Positions 37,826 to 50,161 of a stretch of 64,000 nt of DNA are shown in pieces. This DNA comes from Vibrio bathopelagicus. GTDB taxonomy: Bacteria > Pseudomonadota > Gammaproteobacteria > Enterobacterales > Vibrionaceae. The stretch is taken from assembly GCF_014879975.1 (NCBI RefSeq), contig NZ_CP062501.1:1674001-1738000 (forward strand), given 5' to 3'. Made by a program: the position numbers and the translations under genes. Each line of letters starts with the position of its first letter. Position 1 is the first letter of the stretch. The notes under the pieces were generated by a model. It was given only the letters and a program-made list of their open reading frames with translations, was not told the DNA's origin and made no database searches.

Positions 37826-39166
37826 CTAATAGCCCACTAAGGACGGTAGCCAAAGCGTAATTTGTGGGAAGAAAGCGATAACGAACACGCCCACTACGGA
37901 TGCAAGAACAAAGGGATGGATCTTAGCGGTGATCTGCTCGACCGTAGCCCCGCCTATCCCTGACGCGACAAAGATATTTTCACCAAGCGGAGGCGTTGCA
38001 AAACCTATTGATAGCGTACACACCACCACGATCCCAACGTGCGTTGGATCCGCGCCAAGCATGTACATAATTGGCAGTAATACTGGCACGATGATCATGA
38101 TTGCAGCCAAGGTTTCCATGAACATGCCAATGAACAGCAGTAAGGTGATCGTCAGCGCCCACACCATGTACATATTGTCGGTAAAACCGAGCAATGATTC
38201 AGCCACTACAACTGGGATTTTTTGTTCTATTAGCAAGCGTCCAAAAACCGTTGCTGCGAATAGAATCAACAACACACGCCCCGTGATCCAGGTTGTTGTT
38301 GACAGAGACTTGAGCGTGCTTTTAAACGACAGTTCTCGGTGAATAAACACACCGACAAACAATGAATAGAAGATAGCGACGACCGCTGATTCTGTCGGTG
38401 TAAACATACCGCTGTAGATACCACCAAGAATCAGAAACGGAGCCAATATCGACCATAAACCACGGCGTAAAGAGTGCCTCACTTCACCAAATGACCATGT
38501 TTCGGTTAGCCCTTTATAGCCCTCTCGCTTGGCAATGAAGTAGTTGGTTACCACCAGCGTCGACGCCATGATAAATCCAGGAACAACCCCTGCGACAAAC
38601 AGTTTTGGAATAGATAAAGAGGCGAATTCTCCGTGTTGAGCAATGGCTTCAGGTGGTGCCATCAAGCCCATGGCGGAAATGCCAAAAATAACTAAGGGGA
38701 TAGATGGTGGGATAATAATACCCAACCCACCGGATGCAGCTGTAACTGCCGAGGCGTAGCTCTTATCGTAGTCACGCTTCACCATCGCGGGCACCATTAG
38801 CATGCCTACCGCTGCTGTTGTTGCAGGGCCTGAACCTGAAATAGCACCAAAGAACAAACACGCCATCACAGTTGCAGCGCCAAGGCCACCCGTCACGGGT
38901 CCGGCTAAGCTCTCTGCAATATCCACCAGACGTTTGGAGATACCCGCCGCCTCCATTAATGCGCCAGCAAGAACAAAGGCCGGTAGTGCCATTAACGGGA
39001 AGTTACCCACCGAGGTAAACGCGATTTGTACTAAAGCGATGGGATTTTTGTCGAGCAACATATAGGCCGCCATCGAAGCGCCGGCCAGTGAAACTGTGAT
39101 TGGTGCACCTAGGATTAACAGGGTTAAAAAGCCACCAAATAAAATTAGAGTTAAATAGGATTCCAT
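37826..39166 (-). CDS. tauM: TRAP transporter large permease subunit (DctM type), probable taurine uptake
   Basis: A 446-residue membrane protein with about twelve spans and DctM features: FGGFLTLLILGAPITVSLA, ALPAFVLAGALMEAAGISKR, GAISGSGPATTAAVG and IPPSIPLVIFG. It forms the sodium-driven channel of a TRAP importer. Its operon partners are the binding protein and small subunit just upstream and the taurine-dehydrogenase-like genes beyond; TauKLM of Rhodobacter sphaeroides is the model. Taurine as substrate is inferred from context only. Confidence 0.9.
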   Translation of the reverse strand: MESYLTLILFGGFLTLLILGAPITVSLAGASMAAYMLLDKNPIALVQIAFTSVGNFPLMALPAFVLAGALMEAAGISKRLVDIAESLAGPVTGGLGAATVMACLFFGAISGSGPATTAAVGMLMVPAMVKRDYDKSYASAVTAASGGLGIIIPPSIPLVIFGISAMGLMAPPEAIAQHGEFASLSIPKLFVAGVVPGFIMASTLVVTNYFIAKREGYKGLTETWSFGEVRHSLRRGLWSILAPFLILGGIYSGMFTPTESAVVAIFYSLFVGVFIHRELSFKSTLKSLSTTTWITGRVLLILFAATVFGRLLIEQKIPVVVAESLLGFTDNMYMVWALTITLLLFIGMFMETLAAIMIIVPVLLPIMYMLGADPTHVGIVVVCTLSIGFATPPLGENIFVASGIGGATVEQITAKIHPFVLASVVGVFVIAFFPQITLWLPSLVGY

Positions 39167-39203
39167 TATTACATCTCTCTATTACGACTATTCTCTGTGA
39201 CGA

Positions 39204-39746
39204 CTACTGCGTCGATTTTTGTGCCGTCATTTTGCGCAGTTCTTTAACTTCCGGATCTTCGTTGGTCGCGCCCTTGAATAAACGCTCGTAGTTGTTCCAG
39301 ATAATTCGAATCATCATCAAGGAAAACGCGATAGGCAAAATCATGTAGAAGTACTTCATTGGGATGCCTGTCGTCTGAGACTTCCAAAACAGGTTCATTT
39401 TGTTGAACACGAAATCGTAGCTGAGGTAAACAAAGTAACCGTTGAAACATAACCATAAGAAGTCAGCGATGGTTTCACTCACGGTTTGCACGATTGGAGG
39501 GAAGAATTTGAAATGGAAGCTCACTCGGTTATGGGCTGACATTTTGGCCGCCACAACAGCGCCTAGATAGGCAAACCAGACGAACATGTAAGTCGCCACT
39601 TCATCACCCCAAGGGATGGAGTAATCAAAGAGCTGACGAGTAAGAATTTGTGTGAACAGTAATAGGACAAAGCTTGCTAGCAGCAGACAACATGTATATT
39701 CCTCGATGTTGTTAAGATGCTTTTTTATAGTTTTAGCGACTGACAT
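39204..39746 (-). CDS. tauL: TRAP transporter small permease subunit (DctQ type)
   Basis: A 180-residue protein with four hydrophobic segments and the DctQ pattern LLASFVLLLFTQILTRQLF followed by IPWGDEVATYMFVWFAYLGA. It pairs with the large subunit whose gene starts 37 bases downstream. The ATG follows GGAGG by five bases; an upstream GTG lacks a site. The symbol follows the TauKLM naming and depends on the substrate inference. Confidence 0.88.
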   Translation of the reverse strand: MSVAKTIKKHLNNIEEYTCCLLLASFVLLLFTQILTRQLFDYSIPWGDEVATYMFVWFAYLGAVVAAKMSAHNRVSFHFKFFPPIVQTVSETIADFLWLCFNGYFVYLSYDFVFNKMNLFWKSQTTGIPMKYFYMILPIAFSLMMIRIIWNNYERLFKGATNEDPEVKELRKMTAQKSTQ

Positions 39747-39841
39747 ATAACCTCCAATGTTGATTTCCACATGACAACCAGTCGCTCACGGTCCTAAAAA
39801 GATCAGGTACAGAACAGATCAACGAGTAAAGCCATGTAAAT

Positions 39842-39899
39842 GCCCTATCTCACTGTTCTATCGCTAGGTGATTAAGTAGCGGAGAACAGCAGATAGGGC
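39842..39899 (-). promoter_or_regulatory. Long stem-loop between the TRAP binding-protein gene and the permease genes
   Basis: Arms GCCCTATCT...CTGTTCT and AGAACAG...AGATAGGGC pair over about 16 positions with one small bulge, and an inner CGCTA/TAGCG pairs too. There is no T-run. Such structures after a binding-protein gene often protect its mRNA so that more binding protein than permease is made. Confidence 0.65.
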
Positions 39900-39910
39900 G
39901 TATCTAATCG

Positions 39911-40912
39911 TTACTTTCTACCTAGTAACTCAAGAACATCGTCTAGCTTGTCTTTGCCACCAATGCTTGAATAGAACTTAGGCCAAACTGATTTCGTTAC
40001 CTTGCTGATCCACTCTTGCTCGTTGTCTGCTGGGTCTGTGAATACCATGCCTTTTGCTTGTAGCTCTTCACGGATCTTGTTTTCAGTATTTTCTAAGTAA
40101 GTGAAGCTGTGCTCTGTCGCTTCCTGACCTGCTTCAAGAATGATCTTTTGCATTTCAGGCGTCTGTTGTTGGAAGACAGTTTCACTGACGATTAGCGGCT
40201 CAAGTGAGAAGATGTAACGCAGATTTGTTACGTACTTTTGTACTTCATTGAACTTCATCGCATGAACAGTGATATATGGGTTGTCTTGACCATCAACCAC
40301 ACCTTGTTGTAGGCCAGTAAAGGTCTCAGACCAAGCCATTGGTGTTGGGTTTACACCCCATGCTTGGTACGAAGCAATCATGATTTCATTACGAGGTACA
40401 CGAATCACTAGTCCTTTTAAATCCGCAGGTGAAGCCACTGATTTTTTAGAGTTAGTCAGAATCCTAAAGCCAGAATAAGCCCAACCTACGATGCGAACGC
40501 CTGCATCACGAATGGTGTTATCGACAAGATCTTGACCTACTTGGCCTTGAGTTAATAACACCGCTTCTTCTGCACTTTGAATGACGTAAGGCATAGTCAA
40601 TAGACCAACCGTTGGAGAGAAAGGCGTTACGTTATTGATCGCCAATACGGAGAAGTCGAGTAAGCCGATTGCCGCGTCGTTGACGGTGTCTTGCTCATTG
40701 CCTAATTGACCATTCGGGAACAGGTCGATTTTGACTTTACCGTCTGTTTTTTGCGCCATCAATTCAGAAAATGATGTCGCTAATTCCCATTGAGTACCAC
40801 CAGCAGCATCGCCGATAGCCATTTTAAAATTTGCTGCTGCCGCAGCATGAGATAGCATCGCTGTTGCTACAATTGTGACGCCAGCAATAATTTTATTTTT
40901 AATAAATTTCAT
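39911..40912 (-). CDS. tauK: TRAP transporter periplasmic binding protein (DctP type), probable taurine binding
   Basis: A 333-residue exported protein with a signal peptide (IIAGVTIVATAMLSHAAA). It shows the DctP-family course: ELATSFSELMAQKTDGKVKI, DLFPNGQLGNEQDTVNDA, GVRIVGWAYSGFRILTNSKK and WSETFTGLQQGVVDGQDNP, with the Arg in IRVPRN that pairs with acidic ligands. AAAGG precedes the ATG. It sits between the dehydrogenase genes and the permease subunits. Taurine is the inferred ligand, though a related sulfonate or amino acid is possible. Confidence 0.9.
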   Translation of the reverse strand: MKFIKNKIIAGVTIVATAMLSHAAAAANFKMAIGDAAGGTQWELATSFSELMAQKTDGKVKIDLFPNGQLGNEQDTVNDAAIGLLDFSVLAINNVTPFSPTVGLLTMPYVIQSAEEAVLLTQGQVGQDLVDNTIRDAGVRIVGWAYSGFRILTNSKKSVASPADLKGLVIRVPRNEIMIASYQAWGVNPTPMAWSETFTGLQQGVVDGQDNPYITVHAMKFNEVQKYVTNLRYIFSLEPLIVSETVFQQQTPEMQKIILEAGQEATEHSFTYLENTENKIREELQAKGMVFTDPADNEQEWISKVTKSVWPKFYSSIGGKDKLDDVLELLGRK

Positions 40913-41029: not shown

Positions 41030-42478
41030 TTAAAGCACTTCATCCTTTAACGAATACCACTGATAAAGGAACTGTTGCCCTACTCTTCGAAATGGTGCAA
41101 ACATCTCAGATTCCACCACTTCCCTCACGTTGGGGAACGGAAGTTTTGATTCAAATATTGGCAAGTCAAGCTTATGACCTTCACCTGCGATCCACTGAGC
41201 AAGGCGCTTGCCTGCTTGAGCGGAGTACATCACACCATTGCCGCCATACCCTAGTGCGTAGAATATGGATTGCTTTGGATTCGGCTGATAGATTCTTGGC
41301 ATCATGTCGTGGCTAACATCCACCCAACCCCACCATGAATAATCGATTTTGATCTGATCGAGAGAAGGGAATTTTCGGGTTAAATCCGCTCTCAACATAT
41401 CTTCGTATTTCTTTTCAGGTGCATTCTTGCCACTGATGGCACTGCGCGTACCGATCTGCACTCGGTTATCGGGTAGCAAACGGTAGTAATGACGCAGGAT
41501 TCTGGTATCAGTAATCACCTGGTTGGTTTTGAAGTTACACGCAGCGATTTCGTCTTGAGTTAACGGACGCGTCACCATCGAGTTAGAAAGTACTGGTAAT
41601 AGGCGATTCTTAAGCTCTGAATGCAAACCTTGGCTAGTGTATCCACCGGTACAAACACCGACAGAGCGAGCCTTAACCACACCACCTGGCGTTTTCAAGT
41701 AATGCACACCGTTGCGAGTTTCCCATCCCATCACAGGGCTTGCTGGGTGAACTTTTACGCCGAGTGCTCTCGCCTTTCTTAGATAGCCAAACGCCAATTT
41801 CCCTGCATGAATACCGATGCCTTCTGGCTCATGCATTGCGCCTGCCGCTTCTTGGTCACCAACGTAATCACGTTTTACGGTTTCCGCATCTAAGATCTGC
41901 GCATCATAATCAAACGTGTCACGCAGCAACTTGGCTTCTTTTTCAAGTGTTGCCATCACTTTTGGACGATGGGCAACATATAAGTGGCCACCCGGCTGTG
42001 GGTCACAATCAATGTCTTTAATTAGAGACTTAAATGTGTTCATACCATCTACGCATTCGCGGTGCATTTTCAGTGCGGTTTCGAGTCCCCAACGTTCAAT
42101 CCACTGAGAGCGTTTCAAACGTCCTGACGCACACTGAGCCTGACCACCATTTCGGGTACTGCAGCCCCAACTCAAACGGTTAGCTTCAATCACAGTCGCT
42201 TTAATGCCGTACATTTCAGCAAGGTGTATCGCGGTGCTTAGGCCAGTGTAGCCTGAACCGATTATCGCCACGTCGACATCCATATCCGATGTAATTGGAC
42301 CATCATCTTCAGGTGGTACACCTGCGGTATCTACCCAATAAGTCGGGGCGTATTCCTTACCGTGACCTGGGCTCTTGTCTTTAAGTGGATCGTATTTTGG
42401 ATCGTATTTATCTTGTGCTTGGGTGCTTGTCACCTTTGGCGGCACATCGGCAGCCGGTTGTTCCATTACTAAACTCAT
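41030..42478 (-). CDS. tauY: FAD-dependent amine oxidoreductase, probable taurine dehydrogenase large subunit
   Basis: A 482-residue flavoprotein of the glycine oxidase / D-amino-acid dehydrogenase group. The dinucleotide motif is DVAIIGSGYTGLSTAIHLAE with ATVIEA, then WGCSTRNGGQAQCASG, and the C-terminal flavin motif YALGYGGNGVMYSAQAGKR. In Paracoccus and Rhodobacter, TauXY oxidises taurine to sulfoacetaldehyde and ammonia. Here a small partner gene lies 48 bases upstream, with xsc, pta and a sulfite exporter nearby. The closest look-alikes outside taurine clusters are gamma-glutamylputrescine oxidases, so biochemical proof is lacking. AGGAG precedes the ATG. Confidence 0.8.
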   Translation of the reverse strand: MSLVMEQPAADVPPKVTSTQAQDKYDPKYDPLKDKSPGHGKEYAPTYWVDTAGVPPEDDGPITSDMDVDVAIIGSGYTGLSTAIHLAEMYGIKATVIEANRLSWGCSTRNGGQAQCASGRLKRSQWIERWGLETALKMHRECVDGMNTFKSLIKDIDCDPQPGGHLYVAHRPKVMATLEKEAKLLRDTFDYDAQILDAETVKRDYVGDQEAAGAMHEPEGIGIHAGKLAFGYLRKARALGVKVHPASPVMGWETRNGVHYLKTPGGVVKARSVGVCTGGYTSQGLHSELKNRLLPVLSNSMVTRPLTQDEIAACNFKTNQVITDTRILRHYYRLLPDNRVQIGTRSAISGKNAPEKKYEDMLRADLTRKFPSLDQIKIDYSWWGWVDVSHDMMPRIYQPNPKQSIFYALGYGGNGVMYSAQAGKRLAQWIAGEGHKLDLPIFESKLPFPNVREVVESEMFAPFRRVGQQFLYQWYSLKDEVL

Positions 42479-42526: not shown

Positions 42527-42979
42527 CTAGCTCTTGGGAGTGTTGTTAGGAGTAACCTTATTTGTAGTAAGAAATGGTCTTGTTTTACGGAAGGCATTTT
42601 TTACGCTGATTTTTCCATCTTTCAGGGTAAACACGTCTACCATACGAGCTTCGATGACTGTGCCATCAGGGTTAGTCGCAGAGAACGTTGATTCACTCAC
42701 CGCGCGGTCGCCACACACAAAGTGGACAGGGTCGCTCCAGGCTGCATCTGGAAAGTTCTGCCAAACCAATTCAAAGCTATTGCGAACGGCTTCATACCCT
42801 TCGATAGTGTTTCCAAGTACGCCTTCTCCTGCCACGGTGTGGAAGACACAGTCTTCGGTCATAAACGACATTAGCGCTTCAATATCATGGTTATTCCATG
42901 CATCACTAAAAGACTGTAAAAAGGCGGTGTCGACTTGGTTTTCCAGCACGAATGTCGCTGCATTGGTTTGCATATTCAT
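42527..42979 (-). CDS. tauX: SnoaL-like small protein, probable taurine dehydrogenase small subunit
   Basis: A 150-residue protein with a SnoaL/NTF2-like cone fold: FLQSFSDAWNNHDIEALMSF, MTEDCVFHTVAGEGV, GYEAVRNSF and MVDVFTLKDGKISVKNAFRK. TauX of the known taurine dehydrogenase is a small protein of this size encoded beside the flavoprotein. Assignment rests on size, fold and position. AAAGGA lies nine bases before the ATG. It appears to be first in the operon tauX-tauY-tauK-tauL-tauM-Cache. Confidence 0.7.
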   Translation of the reverse strand: MNMQTNAATFVLENQVDTAFLQSFSDAWNNHDIEALMSFMTEDCVFHTVAGEGVLGNTIEGYEAVRNSFELVWQNFPDAAWSDPVHFVCGDRAVSESTFSATNPDGTVIEARMVDVFTLKDGKISVKNAFRKTRPFLTTNKVTPNNTPKS

Positions 42980-43244: not shown

Positions 43245-44060
43245 TTAGTCGAAATCAAAATCTTGATGGTACTTTCGGCCATACTGCTCAAGCTGGCGAT
43301 CATGAGTATTAACTTGTAATTCGATATTACCCTCACTTTTATTAATCGCTTGATTACTATCTACATGGGCTTCATTTTTTAAATCAGCCAGTTTCTCTTC
43401 AATATATTCTGTCGGTTCATTTAAAACATTCATGGAGATTAATTCCTTTATCAGGTTTACTTTCGCTGATGGAAGAATATGAACGGACACTAGACCGTTT
43501 GAATATTCTTTCTCATCGTACAAAGGCTGAATGGCATCATTGCCACCTTCCTTAAATGGGTGAATGGAATACCACTTGTCTTTTCGTTGCTCTTGCTGAT
43601 CACAATCAGCCACATTGAATATCTGAGTCCTATTGAGATCACATGGTGAGTTGAAAACACTAACCTCATGATAATCAATAGGTTTAATAATATTGATACA
43701 ATCTTTACTTTGGCTATGACATACAGACCACAGCGCATTAATCAGGTTATCTGTCCATTCAAGCAAACGGGTTGGAAACCCCTGTTTCTTGGCTAAACAC
43801 ATCAATAACCAATCGTTTATCTCGTGTACACTCAACGAGTGCCCGCCATAAACTCTCACAGTCGAAAGCAGTTCTTGTTCGACACGGCGAATATTCTTTC
43901 GATTTGATCGACCTAAGCTTGGCATCAGGTTATTATTTTCATAATCACACACGTTGTAAATTAAACCACGATGCCCACTACAATCAGCAATGAGCGAATC
44001 GATTATTTCATACAGTTCTTCTATTGAACTTATATAACGTTTATTTTTCACAGCATGCAT
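43245..44060 (-). CDS. FRG-domain protein
   Basis: A 271-residue protein with the FRG domain near its N-terminus: SGHRGLIYNV, LMPSLGRSNRKNI, and the signature KKQGFPTRLLEWTDNLINALW. FRG domains occur in many stand-alone genes in variable islands and have been linked to phage defence; their biochemistry is unclear. The gene is AT-richer than its neighbours and interrupts the taurine genes between xsc and tauX, bracketed by 23-base direct repeats. The ATG chosen has AGGTG eight bases upstream; a GTG four codons earlier is an alternative start. The C-terminal ~70 residues are charged and unrecognised. Confidence 0.82.
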   Translation of the reverse strand: MHAVKNKRYISSIEELYEIIDSLIADCSGHRGLIYNVCDYENNNLMPSLGRSNRKNIRRVEQELLSTVRVYGGHSLSVHEINDWLLMCLAKKQGFPTRLLEWTDNLINALWSVCHSQSKDCINIIKPIDYHEVSVFNSPCDLNRTQIFNVADCDQQEQRKDKWYSIHPFKEGGNDAIQPLYDEKEYSNGLVSVHILPSAKVNLIKELISMNVLNEPTEYIEEKLADLKNEAHVDSNQAINKSEGNIELQVNTHDRQLEQYGRKYHQDFDFD

Positions 44061-44276
44061 GTAATAAGTCACCTAATTTAAATCCGGTACAATCCAAATA
44101 TCAACATTACGGCTATCCAATAGCCAATTAACATCGTTATCTATAACTTTCCAAAATGATAATAGGTATATATCTTCTTAAAAAACGTAATATTTGTGGA
44201 CCCATTCGTTAAGGATCGATTAATAATAACGAGTGACAAAGTGTATATAGCTAGAACCACTTATGTTCCTAATGAA

Positions 44277-46229: not shown

Positions 46230-46269
46230 TCTTCCATTCTCCTTGAGTTAACCAAAATTTCATTTTTCG

Positions 46270-46360
46270 GAATGAATTGTCTCTTTTTCGAATTCAATTT
46301 CACCTTAGTAGTAGAATTTTTGCGCGTCAACTTTTTATATTAAATTGGAACAATTCATTC
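46270..46360. promoter_or_regulatory. Inverted operator pair in the xsc / cobS-like divergent promoter region
   Basis: GAATGAATTGT at 46270-46280 and ACAATTCATTC at 46350-46360 form a perfect 11-base inverted repeat 80 bases apart. The second overlaps TTGGAACAATTC, which shares TGGAACAATT with the pta-iclR gap. An IclR-type regulator acting on both is inferred. Confidence 0.5.
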
Positions 46361-46491
46361 TAATTAATAAAACTGGATCACATTATTGGTAGTTTTTCGT
46401 ACAAAAAGTGCCATTAACTTAAGAGGAGCTGTTAATAATCGATGACATATCGCGATAGCAGCGACAAGTGATGAGCTATATAGAGGGAAAT

Positions 46492-47475
46492 ATGATGAAA
46501 GAGGCGCAATTGATACCAACGCAACCGGTAAGTGTGAGAGAACGCTTTGGGATCGACAGCAACCTAACCGTGATGGCATTTGAACATGTGGGCGAATATG
46601 TTCCTAAAGTCGATCCTAATTACTGTTTTGATCCTGAAGTAACACTAGCGATATTGGCGGGGTTCACCTCCAATCGACGCACGCTGATACAAGGTACACA
46701 CGGAACGGGCAAGTCTTCTCACATTGAACAAATCGCCGCGAGATTGAACTGGCCATGCTTGAGGATCAACCTAGACGGACACTTAAGCCGATTGGATTTC
46801 ATAGGAAAGGACAGCATCGTCATTAAAGATGGAATGCAGGTGACAGAGTTTAAAGAAGGCATTCTTCCGCAAAGTATCCAGCAACCCATAGCTCTGGTCT
46901 TAGACGAATACGATGCAGGACGACCAGATGTGATGTTTGTGATCCAACAACTCTTAGAGCAAGACGGCAAATACACCTCTTTAGAGCAAAACCGAGTGAT
47001 CACGCCTCACCCCTCTTTCCGGCTATTTGCTACCTGTAACACGCTTGGTTTGGGTAACTTCTCGGGTTTATATTCCGGAACTCAAGTACTTAACCATAGT
47101 CAGCTTGACCGATGGAACATCATCGCCACGCTTAACTATTTAGATCCGCAACATGAAACCAAGATCGTGTTATCAAAGCGCCCAGAGCTGAACAGTGAAA
47201 GTGGTCAGCAGTTAGTAGAGAAAATGATCGCAACCGCTGGTTTAACTCGAAATGGTTTTAGAGCAGGCGATCTGTCGACGGTAATGTCTCCGAGAACCGT
47301 GATCACATGGGCTGAAAACATCCGTATATTCGATAACGTAGCGACTGCATTTAGGCTTTCATTCCTAAACCGTTGTGAAGATGAAGAGAAAGAGCTAGTG
47401 AGCGAATATTACTTCCGCTGCTTTGGTGAGACTCTTGAAACGCATACTCAAAGTTATGTGCAGTCGGAGTCGTAA
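46492..47475 (+). CDS. CobS-like AAA+ ATPase (MoxR/chelatase class) in the taurine island
   Basis: A 327-residue ATPase with Walker A GTHGTGKS at residues 68-75, Walker B ALVLDEYD near 134-141, and the CobS-specific stretches NYCFDPEVTLAILAGFTSNR, WPCLRINLDGHLSRLDFIGK, DEYDAGRPDVMFVIQQLLE and MSPRTVITWAENI. It is a close relative of CobS, the ATPase of aerobic cobaltochelatase, yet no CobN or cobalamin gene is present. GAGGG lies before the chosen ATG; an earlier GTG-ATG pair is less well placed. Its stop is three bases before the CobT-like start, so the two are co-translated and surely work together. Confidence 0.9.
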   Translation: MMKEAQLIPTQPVSVRERFGIDSNLTVMAFEHVGEYVPKVDPNYCFDPEVTLAILAGFTSNRRTLIQGTHGTGKSSHIEQIAARLNWPCLRINLDGHLSRLDFIGKDSIVIKDGMQVTEFKEGILPQSIQQPIALVLDEYDAGRPDVMFVIQQLLEQDGKYTSLEQNRVITPHPSFRLFATCNTLGLGNFSGLYSGTQVLNHSQLDRWNIIATLNYLDPQHETKIVLSKRPELNSESGQQLVEKMIATAGLTRNGFRAGDLSTVMSPRTVITWAENIRIFDNVATAFRLSFLNRCEDEEKELVSEYYFRCFGETLETHTQSYVQSES

Positions 47476-47478
47476 ACC

Positions 47479-49197
47479 ATGGCCAATGTTTCTTCTCAGC
47501 AGAAAAAGATCCTCGACCTTGGTGTGTCTGTCGCTAGAGCGATCAGTGGTGAATTGAACCTGAATTATCGGGGAGAGCGTCTCTATAACGGCAACAACCC
47601 TTGCTATTATCAGTCTGCCCACACCAACGATCTCACCTTTGTGTCTCGCCATGAGTTGAAAAACAGCAAGCTTTCGATGCAAGGAAAGATCGATTCATCT
47701 GCATTACGACTCTTGCTTTCCGACACAAATCTTCACTATTCACTACGACCTAAAAACGAAGTCGAACGTCTGTTATATGATTTCTGCGAACAAGTACGAA
47801 TTGAATCGCAAGTTCCGCTTTATCTAAAAGGCGTGACTAAGAGCATTCAATTCAACTTTGCTTATTGGAGCGACCAATATCATCAGAATGGTTTTACTGA
47901 ATCTCGAATTGGGATGCTACTGTTCACGCTGATGCAGGTCATCCACACCCGCTTAACCGGTGTTCCAGTTTCGGAACCAATTGCGGAAACCATTGAATCG
48001 ACTCGCTCCGGCATCGTGCCTATTTTCGGAAGCAGCCTGAAGCGCTTGAAGGAGCATCGAGCCGACCAACAACAGTTTGCTCACTGCGCCAATGAACTGG
48101 CCTTTTTAGCGCAAGAGCTCATCAACCAAGAGCAAGAGAGTAATAGCTCAACCACGCCAACGGTTGAAGAAGACATCAAGATCCTCGCGCAGCTTGCCCT
48201 TATCGTTGATGGCGACATTCAAGATGAAGACGTCGATACCGATATCACGGGTAGTAGTAAGGTGTTTGAACTGTCGGGCGCCAATTATCAGGTCTTTAAT
48301 TCAGAATTTGACCAAGTGGTTGCCGCAGATAAACTCGTCAGGCGCGCCCTGTTACTCGAGCTTAGGCAAAAGCTCACCGATGACATTATGGCGAGACAAG
48401 TGAACACCCGCCGTTTAGCCGCTATGCTCACCAGCTTTGTTGCGACGCCCCAAAGGAATCGACGTCAGGATCATTTGGAAGAAGGCATCGTCAACGCCAC
48501 CACTATCACCAAACTCATCACATCACCGTTGGATCGTGCTGTCTTTTATCAACCTGACATTGGCGCGTCTCATCAATGTGCCATCACATTTCTAATGGAC
48601 TGCTCAGGTTCTATGCAAAAACACAGTCACAAGCTAAGTTTGTTGATGGATACGATTCTCAAATCCGTTGGGCTAGCCAACATTCCTTTTGAGATTATTG
48701 GCTTCACCACCAATAACTGGAACGGTGGTAAGGTTTATCGGCAGTGGCTCAAGCAAGGTCAGCCAAAACACCCAGGCCGCTTAAACGAAGTTAGACATAT
48801 TGTGTTTAAGGATTTTGATACACATTGGAGACGCTCTCGCCTTGGCATTGCTAGCCTTCGTAAAGCCGATATATTTAAAGAAGGGATTGATGGCGAAGCG
48901 GTTCAGTTCGCTAGCCTTCGGCTGCAACAGCACAGCGCGCAGAGAAAGGTTTTAATCGTGTTCTCAGACGGCTGTCCGATGGATACTGCCACCAGCACTG
49001 CCAACGATCAGTTCTATTTGGATAACCATCTCAAACAAGTGATCGAGCGCGAATCGAGCCAAAACAGTATCGAAATTCATGGTGTGGGAATGGGCGTCGA
49101 TTTAAGCCCATACTACCGAAGTAACATCACTTTAGATGTGCAGGAGAGCTGCTTGTTTGGGTTATCTAGGAGTATCTTTGAGATGCTAAAGCGTTAA
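47479..49197 (+). CDS. CobT-like protein with von Willebrand factor A domain, partner of the CobS-like ATPase
   Basis: A 572-residue protein. The C-terminal VWA domain has the metal-ion (MIDAS) motif DCSGSM at residues 374-379 and FSDGCP around 496. Stretches such as EIIGFTTNNWNGG, PGRLNEVRHIVFK, IDGEAVQFASLRL and YYRSNITLDVQE follow CobT. The N-terminal 350 residues keep the CobT helical region but the acidic linker is short. CobT with CobS activates the chelatase subunit CobN. By analogy with other AAA+/VWA pairs (CbbQ-CbbO, NorQ-NorD), this pair may activate or load a metal into an enzyme, possibly of the taurine pathway; that is inference. Confidence 0.88.
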   Translation: MANVSSQQKKILDLGVSVARAISGELNLNYRGERLYNGNNPCYYQSAHTNDLTFVSRHELKNSKLSMQGKIDSSALRLLLSDTNLHYSLRPKNEVERLLYDFCEQVRIESQVPLYLKGVTKSIQFNFAYWSDQYHQNGFTESRIGMLLFTLMQVIHTRLTGVPVSEPIAETIESTRSGIVPIFGSSLKRLKEHRADQQQFAHCANELAFLAQELINQEQESNSSTTPTVEEDIKILAQLALIVDGDIQDEDVDTDITGSSKVFELSGANYQVFNSEFDQVVAADKLVRRALLLELRQKLTDDIMARQVNTRRLAAMLTSFVATPQRNRRQDHLEEGIVNATTITKLITSPLDRAVFYQPDIGASHQCAITFLMDCSGSMQKHSHKLSLLMDTILKSVGLANIPFEIIGFTTNNWNGGKVYRQWLKQGQPKHPGRLNEVRHIVFKDFDTHWRRSRLGIASLRKADIFKEGIDGEAVQFASLRLQQHSAQRKVLIVFSDGCPMDTATSTANDQFYLDNHLKQVIERESSQNSIEIHGVGMGVDLSPYYRSNITLDVQESCLFGLSRSIFEMLKR

Positions 49198-49291: not shown

Positions 49292-49345
49292 TTAAGAGGT
49301 GGCGAGCAACTAAGAGATAACAAGAAACTAAGATATAGCAAGCAA
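49292..49345 (-). repeat. Three 18-base in-frame copies of a gene tail, each ending in a stop codon
   Basis: In the frame of the TauE-like gene the minus strand encodes LLAIS-stop (the real end), then FLVIS-stop, then LLATS-stop, with stops at 49328, 49310 and 49292, exactly 18 bases apart. Confidence 0.92.
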
Positions 49346-50095
49346 CGACCATGCAGAGACAGCCATTAAATACCCACCAATCAACATCAGCACAATAAAT
49401 ACCAGCTTTCTGAGTTGGTCATTCGACAACGGCGGTGGGAAGCGCCGAGCAAACATAGTGACAAGTGCAACCAAAGGAACAGCAATAGCGGATAACCACA
49501 GTATGCTCTGTTCCATATCGCCTGCAGCGTAGACATTCACAGTACGAGACATAGAGGTACAAGCGAACACCATCAGCAGTGTGCTTCGCACCAGATCGAG
49601 CGTAAAAGGCTGCCGATAGAGGTGGTAAACAATCGGTGGACCCGCCATTCCAAACAACCCTCCCGCTAGCCCAGAGCTAAAACCAGATAACAAAAACGAT
49701 ACAGTTGCCGAGCGCTCTTTTCTGGTTTTAGGTTTGAACATAAAACTCAAACCTGCGAATAGCACCATCGCACCCAATAGTCCTCGGAGAATATGCGTTG
49801 CTGAATCGCTCAACTCGTCCAGTAAAAACACACCAAGTGACACGCCGGGGATAATACCGATCACTAACACCACCAGAATCTTGAGCTCCCCAAGTAATGG
49901 TTTACCCATTAAAGCGACCAAGCAATTGAACAAGGTCACAATACTGACCACAGCGGCTATAACGGGTAAAGAAACCAAATTAAGGCTGACCGTCAAACCA
50001 ATCACGATGATACCGAGGCCAAAACCCGTGACAGTTTGGAAGTAGGTACCGACCGCAATAGTGGCAAGAATGGCGAGTAAAACAGGTAACTCCAT
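49328..50095 (-). CDS. tauE: TauE/SafE-family permease, probable sulfite exporter
   Basis: A 255-residue membrane protein with about eight spans and the family patterns TVTGFGLGIIVIGLT, IPGVSLGVFLLDEL and SGFSSGLAGGLFGMAGPPIVYHLY. Sulfite is the toxic by-product of Xsc and must leave the cell; TauE-type proteins in taurine clusters do this. It lies beside pta and opposite the CobS/CobT-like pair. TAGGA precedes the chosen ATG; a TTG two codons earlier is not needed. The substrate is inferred from context, since the family also moves other anions. Confidence 0.82.
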   Translation of the reverse strand: MELPVLLAILATIAVGTYFQTVTGFGLGIIVIGLTVSLNLVSLPVIAAVVSIVTLFNCLVALMGKPLLGELKILVVLVIGIIPGVSLGVFLLDELSDSATHILRGLLGAMVLFAGLSFMFKPKTRKERSATVSFLLSGFSSGLAGGLFGMAGPPIVYHLYRQPFTLDLVRSTLLMVFACTSMSRTVNVYAAGDMEQSILWLSAIAVPLVALVTMFARRFPPPLSNDQLRKLVFIVLMLIGGYLMAVSAWSLLAIS

Positions 50096-50161
50096 TAGCA
50101 ATCCTAATTGGGTTGTTTTGCGTTTGATTTGAATGTGAGTATCAGCTTCAGGAGCTCGATT

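Follow-up and report, generated by a model that had tools for sequence, protein, structure and literature searches.

The window analysed here is a stretch of 64,000 nucleotides on the second contig of the two-contig genome (5.67 Mb) of Vibrio bathopelagicus, and it contains two adjacent genes, cobS-like and cobT-like, that are transcribed divergently from xsc, the gene encoding sulfoacetaldehyde acetyltransferase (Xsc). On balance, we lean towards the view that the products of this pair form a dedicated MoxR-type AAA+/VWA remodelling machine for one form of Xsc, referred to below as clade B, and the best reading by analogy is that the pair works like CbbQ-CbbO or NorQ-NorD. The linkage between the pair and xsc was observed directly, whereas we infer the physical binding to Xsc and the outcome of remodelling. 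The elements concerned are the following:

46492 to 47475, plus strand: CobS-like AAA+ ATPase (MoxR-type motor), 327 amino acids; open reading frame (ORF), Pfam AAA_5 and CobS_N, TIGR01650 470.1 bits
47479 to 49197, plus strand: CobT-like VWA adaptor with a metal ion-dependent adhesion site (MIDAS), 572 amino acids; ORF, Pfam CobT and CobT_C, TIGR01651 233.9 bits
44418 to 46229, minus strand: xsc, sulfoacetaldehyde acetyltransferase (clade B), the proposed client; TIGR03457 1064.6 bits, cut-off 676.4
46230 to 46491, no strand: shared divergent control region of xsc and cobS, with an inverted repeat

Both ORFs of the pair are intact and are separated by 3 bases. The CobS-like ORF starts at an ATG with GAGGG 4 bases upstream, and the open frame reaches back to a GTG at 46468. 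Pfam matches over the cut-off were obtained for AAA_5, CobS_N and AAA in the first protein and for CobT and CobT_C in the second. GTHGTGKS and LVLDE, which we take to be Walker A and Walker B, are present in the CobS-like protein, and DCSGS, FTT and SDGCPMD, presumably the MIDAS elements, are present in the CobT-like protein. The pair thus has what characterizes MoxR-type AAA+/VWA systems, namely an AAA+ protein with Walker A and B motifs encoded adjacent to a VWA protein with a MIDAS. These results bear out a first-pass annotation of this DNA, which had described a CobS-like protein with intact Walker motifs and a CobT-like protein with an intact MIDAS, encoded three bases apart; its placement of the pair between xsc and a TauE-type gene, divergent from xsc, also agrees with the coordinates and the profile matches.

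The association with xsc extends well beyond the window. A total of 91 loci, including the window, were compared, which consisted of 80 relatives, the best of 492 confirmed ones when these were ordered by their similarity to a Photobacterium CobT, and of other fetched loci. Sixty-two of these were well flanked, having 6 kb or more of sequence on either side, and the other 29, of which 11 had no Xsc in the stretch, were set aside. When neighbors were counted as best tblastn matches, not by curated models, with Xsc accepted at 60% identity or above, Xsc was found near the pair in 57 of the 62 well-flanked loci, at a distance of at most 6.4 kb from cobT, and the five loci without a nearby Xsc (L091, L093, L123, L182, and L187) all come from genomes that encode Xsc elsewhere. 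As a control, ten stretches with canonical CobST were searched, and none had an Xsc match. The Xsc-linked loci belong to at least seven named orders in the NCBI naming (Vibrionales, Burkholderiales, Rhodocyclales, Nitrosomonadales, Oceanospirillales, Pseudomonadales, and Aeromonadales), so that the linkage to xsc, for which the first-pass annotation had proposed a survey of related genomes, is conserved. The gene arrangement varies. In 22 of the 91 loci, xsc and cobS are directly divergent, and in another 19 they are divergent with an IclR gene separating them; xsc is upstream of cobS on the same strand in 4, while in the remaining 46 it is placed otherwise or lies outside the stretch. The co-directional orders are xsc-cobS-cobT (L148 and L155), xsc-pta-cobS-cobT (L089), and xsc-ackA-like-cobS-cobT (L150), in which the acetate-kinase-like gene was named by sequence and not by a model.

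Co-occurrence of the pair and Xsc was surveyed at the genus, class, and phylum levels in genomes that were not chosen by the presence of the pair. Related species are not independent, and therefore the counts were not converted to probabilities; Fisher values, which ignore relatedness, were not used as such either. In Vibrio, CobT (E up to 1e-20) was found in 23 of 148 genomes and Xsc in the same 23, side by side in each, including G136, although its CobT is only 34% identical. In the class sample, 17 of 369 genomes had CobT matches, five of which (G000, G194, G290, G371, and G412) were of the Xsc-linked type as judged by low TIGR01651 scores, with four of the five confirmed on the CobS+CobT tree described below besides that of the window. 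All five carry an Xsc at least 80% identical to that of the window, and such an Xsc was found in seven of the 369 genomes, five of which have the pair. In the phylum sample, clade-B Xsc occurred in 6 of 279 genomes, and the same 6 carry CobT of the Xsc-linked type, typed by score (E below 1e-100, versus 4.9e-60 for the next best); the other 74 of the 80 CobT matches were far weaker and were counted as canonical without a tree. Furthermore, Xsc was present in the genome for all 62 well-flanked loci, and in none of the four genomes searched among the 11 part-contig loci without Xsc in view, assemblies from which short contigs may be missing.

When the presence of the pair was mapped on a tree of 105 Xsc proteins, the label needed only two changes, most simply a gain within clade B and a loss in the genus of G189 and G330, which is only one way to read two changes. 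Most of the 74 pair-bearing rows were collected via the pair, so that the tree cannot gauge how often clade B lacks it, and the 31 rows labelled as without the pair include clade-A genomes that carry canonical CobT. With the label readable as a single gain, the co-occurrence is for the most part not independent evidence. This reading, and the tendency of linked genes to travel together, would also be expected if the pair had arrived by hitch-hiking with a mobile catabolic island and had no working link to the sulfonate genes. We consider such hitch-hiking very improbable, since the order and orientation around Xsc vary across loci while the linkage stays, the Walker and DxSGS motifs are conserved in every one of 85 rows, and five genomes retain both the pair and Xsc though not side by side. 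Two further approaches were set aside. Several residues specific to the pair-bearing Xsc clade (for example N428, which is C in other Xsc rows, H493, and R520) mark the clade and not dependence on the pair, because G189 and G330, which have no pair, keep most of them, and the correlation between Xsc and CobST distances (r of 0.68 for 1770 pairs from 60 loci) had no control and was not used.

By every test made, the pair is not a cobaltochelatase. The whole genome had no match to CobN (PF02514), which was matched in 5 of 14 control genomes, and CbiC (PF02570), the sole corrin-ring marker used, was not found in it either; a role in cobalamin synthesis was therefore rejected for this genome. The first-pass annotation had seen no CobN or cobalamin gene in the window and had proposed a genome-wide search for CobN; for CobN and CbiC its observation now extends to the genome, in which one CobS match and one CobT match were found. 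The scores of the two proteins fell below the cut-off of the CobS equivalog model TIGR01650 (558.55) and far under that of the CobT equivalog model TIGR01651 (759.05). In a concatenated CobS+CobT tree of 101 rows, 16 canonical rows, including Sinorhizobium meliloti, were separated from the other 85, the window among them, by a branch of length 1.1 with a Shimodaira-Hasegawa-like approximate likelihood ratio test (SH-aLRT) value of 100. This tree was built by a quick method after 8 of 109 chosen rows were dropped as partial, two of its 16 canonical rows are one locus, and it has several long branches, with L089, L090, L091, and L023 unsurely placed and L089 and L090 drawn nearest the canonical rows. 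The AAA+ and VWA proteins of the pair are nevertheless homologous to those of the CobN-CobS-CobT system and are encoded in the same order, their top PDB matches by sequence are CobS 9ujv and CobT 9uka, and CobS and CobT are the nearest named families; such proteins are currently named "cobaltochelatase CobT-related" or "cobalamin biosynthesis protein CobT" in the databases. One genome with a pair of the Xsc-linked type, G290, has a CobN-family match over the cut-off, in three pieces, and it is the only one of the five class-sample genomes with this CobT type to have one. It is hardly conceivable, given the missing CobN and CbiC, the missed equivalog cut-offs, the long branch, and the linkage to xsc, that the pair serves cobalamin as a vestigial or alternative cobaltochelatase.

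The routes for taurine, isethionate, and sulfoacetate converge at sulfoacetaldehyde and Xsc, which is the desulfonation step for all three. Near the pair, TauY was found in 40 of the 62 well-flanked loci, TauX in 38, and TauE in 25. Other neighbors were a GMC-type dehydrogenase (24 loci), a SauS-like aldehyde dehydrogenase (12), a CobW-type GTPase (10), and SoeA (9). Ten of the 22 loci without a nearby TauY carry a SauS-like gene, as judged by similarity, and the one tested, in L123, passes NF047625 (acylating sulfoacetaldehyde dehydrogenase). Since TauY is absent from the neighborhood of these 22 loci and the sulfonate routes converge at Xsc, Xsc appears from the sequences to be the best client candidate, being the most widely shared enzyme among those sought (taurine-pyruvate aminotransferase was not sought). 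TauXY, the taurine dehydrogenase, as the sole client is weakened by the same 22 loci, and phosphate acetyltransferase (Pta) was rejected as the client, as it was near only 45 of the 62 loci even by a wide search; a narrower search had found 35, because divergent Pta genes, for instance the one in L089, escaped it. The first-pass annotation had suggested that the pair was recruited for a protein of the taurine pathway, be it Xsc, TauXY, or a missing partner. Recruitment is well supported, since neither of the two outcomes that this annotation had named as contrary to it was observed, and the choice of client narrows to Xsc (57 of 62 loci, versus 40 for TauY). Its description of the region as a taurine-degradation island holds for the window, which does contain taurine genes, but the setting of the pair is wider, with SauS in L123 and CuyB in L143.

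It could also be that the client is another sulfonate enzyme, such as TauXY, an SoeABC-type sulfite-oxidising molybdoenzyme, or the GMC-type dehydrogenase, and that the pair inserts or repairs a metal or another cofactor there, in the manner of NorQD or CobNST. The presence of TauY, SoeA-like, GMC-type, and CobW-type GTPase genes near some of the pairs, and the two loci (L142 and L167) in which the pair adjoins tauX and is divergent from it, are consistent with such a role, as is the metal insertion served by NorQD according to the excerpted text of PMC13036017. However, none of these enzymes is near all loci, 22 of 62 having no TauY nearby, 53 no SoeA, and 38 no GMC-type dehydrogenase, and we therefore regard this role as unlikely. 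The CobW-type GTPase genes near Xsc-type CobT are in L191 (13621 to 14589) and nine other Burkholderiaceae loci, identified by similarity and, for L191 only, by Pfam, and would be in keeping with metal delivery. We know of no metal site in Xsc that needs loading.

As to how a machine serving Xsc might work, Walker A, Walker B, and the DxSGS motif were conserved in all 85 non-canonical rows, and SDGxPxD in 82 of them. A stretch after FTT was invariant in an alignment of 32 sequences (W414, G416, G417, W423, P429, and P432-L435) and may correspond to the VWA finger. The AlphaFold2 model of the CobT-like protein had a mean predicted local distance difference test (pLDDT) score of 82.6 and a predicted template modelling (pTM) score of 0.54. 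Its best six Foldseek matches were chain G of NorQ-NorD entries (E of 2e-8 to 2.8e-5), which covered just the VWA part, and the 50 matches listed include no solved CobT chain. For NorQD, the excerpted text of PMC13036017 describes that the VWA finger enters the NorQ pore, that ATP hydrolysis rotates the VWA domain, and that the MIDAS is suggested as the grip on the target, and an excerpt of PMC9976466 suggests a finger-in-pore mode for CbbQ-CbbO as well; these mechanics are likely the same in the pair. By analogy with NorQD and CbbQO, CobS-like subunits would form a hexameric ATPase ring, in the pore of which the CobT-like protein would dock by its VWA finger, while it would grip Xsc with its N-terminal helical domain and the metal site of its MIDAS, so that ATP hydrolysis could twist or open the enzyme. 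The most likely outcome would be that a blocked or damaged thiamine diphosphate active site is freed or reloaded, and a less likely one would be the first insertion of the cofactor metal of Xsc. We put forward only tentatively, as one possibility by analogy, that the pair is an ATP-driven Xsc activase that clears a blocked or decayed thiamine diphosphate intermediate, as Rubisco activases do for Rubisco.

Several observations, in addition to the CobN-family match of G290, weigh against a machine dedicated to clade-B Xsc. Clade-A Xsc (25 rows of the Xsc tree, 44-48% identical), two of which were run against TIGR03457 and both passed, has no linked pair, and four genomes with an intermediate Xsc (G202, G255, G372, and G458) are also without such a pair. 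Because Xsc outside the pair-bearing clade occurs without a linked pair, the Xsc reaction as such does not need it, although the clade-B form may. Even for clade B, the pair does not always accompany Xsc: it does so in 23 of 23 genomes in the genus survey and 6 of 6 in the phylum survey but in 5 of 7 in the class survey, where G189 and G330, of one genus, have clade-B Xsc and no CobT match. Conversely, in G773-G776 the pair is present and no Xsc was found on a genome search, although the contigs of three of them stop short, 11 to 362 bases upstream of cobS, in the place frequently occupied by Xsc or IclR. The remaining one, L143, extends 4.7 kb upstream of cobS, still without Xsc; it is nevertheless in a sulfonate setting, because it contains CuyB (cysteate racemase, over the NCBIfam cut-off) and a histidinol-dehydrogenase-like gene. 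In G746, of the phylum sample, Xsc is approximately 28 kb from the pair, and no sulfonate gene was recognised beside the Xsc-type pair of G412. In addition, IclR was near the pair in 54 of the 62 well-flanked loci, almost as constantly as Xsc, 3 of the 85 rows showed no third MIDAS pattern, and the fold match to NorQ-NorD was partial (TM score of 0.54-0.66 by target and 0.23-0.32 by query, root-mean-square deviation of 5.9-7.7). Alternatively, the pair could be a general protein-repair helper under reactive sulfite or sulfoacetaldehyde with no single fixed client, as it accompanies sulfonate genes irrespective of the substrate, also in SauS and CuyB settings, and the CuyB-bearing metagenome-assembled genome of L143 showed no Xsc. 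In contrast, genomes with clade-A Xsc handle the same chemicals without a linked pair, and the pair tracks one Xsc clade, and we find a general helper rather improbable.

The control region shared by xsc and cobS contains an inverted repeat (46258-46280 and 46350-46372, 78% complementary), so that the repeats reported there by the first-pass annotation are real. Among 23 Vibrio loci, including that of the window, the first half-motif was found at one mismatch or fewer in 22 and the second in 21, in a search of each whole 4.7 kb locus without a shuffled control. An IclR gene 57-66% identical to that of the window lies directly upstream of cobS in 23 of the 91 loci, which suggests that these genes belong to one regulon. 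In the window, the IclR gene is among the other genes around the pair, as follows:

42527 to 42979, minus strand: TauX-like small subunit (SnoaL-like); Pfam SnoaL_2
41030 to 42478, minus strand: TauY-like FAD-dependent oxidoreductase (DAO); profile matches
37826 to 40912, minus strand: TRAP transporter (DctM-, DctQ-, and DctP-like); DctP by Pfam PF03480, the other two by sequence and position
49328 to 50101, minus strand: TauE/SafE sulfite exporter family protein; Pfam PF01925
50162 to 51241, minus strand: Pta, phosphate acetyltransferase; TIGR00651 over the cut-off, PF01515
51351 to 52178, plus strand: IclR-family regulator; profile match

The subunit names TauX and TauY are ones that we presume to apply here. 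The TRAP transporter is presumed to import taurine, and Pta would consume the acetyl phosphate produced by Xsc. An FRG-domain protein is encoded between tauX and xsc in the window (43245-44072, minus strand) and has a 51% identical relative in L097 (G035), while in L096, L097, and L141 a membrane protein, which we take to be YeiH-like, is encoded between tauX and xsc. CobT relatives 92-97% identical include those of V. gigantis, V. toranzoniae, V. kanaloae, and V. splendidus, which probably places this Vibrio in the Splendidus group.

AAA+/VWA pairs that act on single enzymes are already known, and the coupling to Xsc would be the new part. Among the titles and the openings of abstracts listed from open-licence literature, none couples CobST or an AAA+/VWA pair to Xsc; work in subscription journals may exist. 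In CbbQ-CbbO, the gene pair sits beside the client gene. The pair described here resembles it in combining a MoxR-type AAA+ protein with a VWA adaptor (as in the excerpt of PMC9976466), whereas the client proposed here is Xsc and not Rubisco, and the CobS-like protein scored 20.2 bits against Pfam CbbQ_C, marginally below the cut-off of 20.6, and by this domain falls narrowly outside the CbbQ/NorQ subfamily. It differs from NorQ-NorD, the entries of which the VWA part of the CobT-like model matches best, in that the proposed client is Xsc, a soluble thiamine-diphosphate enzyme. In Ruegeria pomeroyi, CobS is SPO2853, far apart from pta and tauR (SPO3560 and SPO3562), according to a portion of PMC4334477, and the cobS and cobT of PMC12879404, as far as its excerpt indicates, are other enzymes of the same names.

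CobST pairs adjoining single enzyme clusters were also found apart from Xsc. These orphan pairs (L095, L192, and L102-L103) differ from the one described here in that they fall in the canonical CobST group, where L102 and L103 are represented as L058 and L059, and lack Xsc within the stretch that was fetched. In L192 (8236-11680, Pandoraea oxalativorans plasmid pPO70-1), ureG is directly followed by a CobS-CobT pair of the canonical type, with ureD and urease subunit genes close by and no ureE or ureF named in the incomplete gene table, and this pair possibly serves urease. G412 carries two CobST, the Xsc-type pair and a second, canonical one (L095, 589-13700), which is located beside genes for an XdhC/CoxI protein, an MttB-type methyltransferase (Pfam), and proteins that are, judging from the sequence, molybdenum-hydroxylase-like (Cox-like), an arrangement reminiscent of CoxD-CoxE. 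Canonical-type CobST adjoins an AurF-like protein in L102 (6970-11763), L103 (7245-11628), and L104 (7864-11802), identified by Pfam in L102 and L103 and by sequence likeness in L104, with a Fumble-type protein also present in L102; no CobN match was found in G323, G193, and G430, the genomes with these AurF-adjacent CobST. A distant CobT-like VWA protein is encoded in 143 Acinetobacter plasmid records, and the matches listed are approximately 24% identical over half of the query. As a further lead, canonical CobT was found in 7 of 10 class-sample genomes with clade-A Xsc, versus 13 of 369 overall, although only 3 of the 7 have CobN and only three genera are represented.

Taurine, isethionate, and sulfoacetate are carbon and sulfur sources in sea and soil. 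If one major Xsc clade needs a motor pair of its own, any growth prediction, heterologous expression, or annotation that leaves the pair out would be incomplete. A soluble, easily assayed client would also become available for studying how AAA+/VWA machines act, and the presence of CobST pairs in genomes without CobN would be partly explained. Should the pair be an Xsc activase, it would add a new kind of client to those of the CobST/CbbQO/NorQD machines and would reveal that organosulfonate breakdown has, in many bacteria of sea and soil, a requirement that has been hidden.

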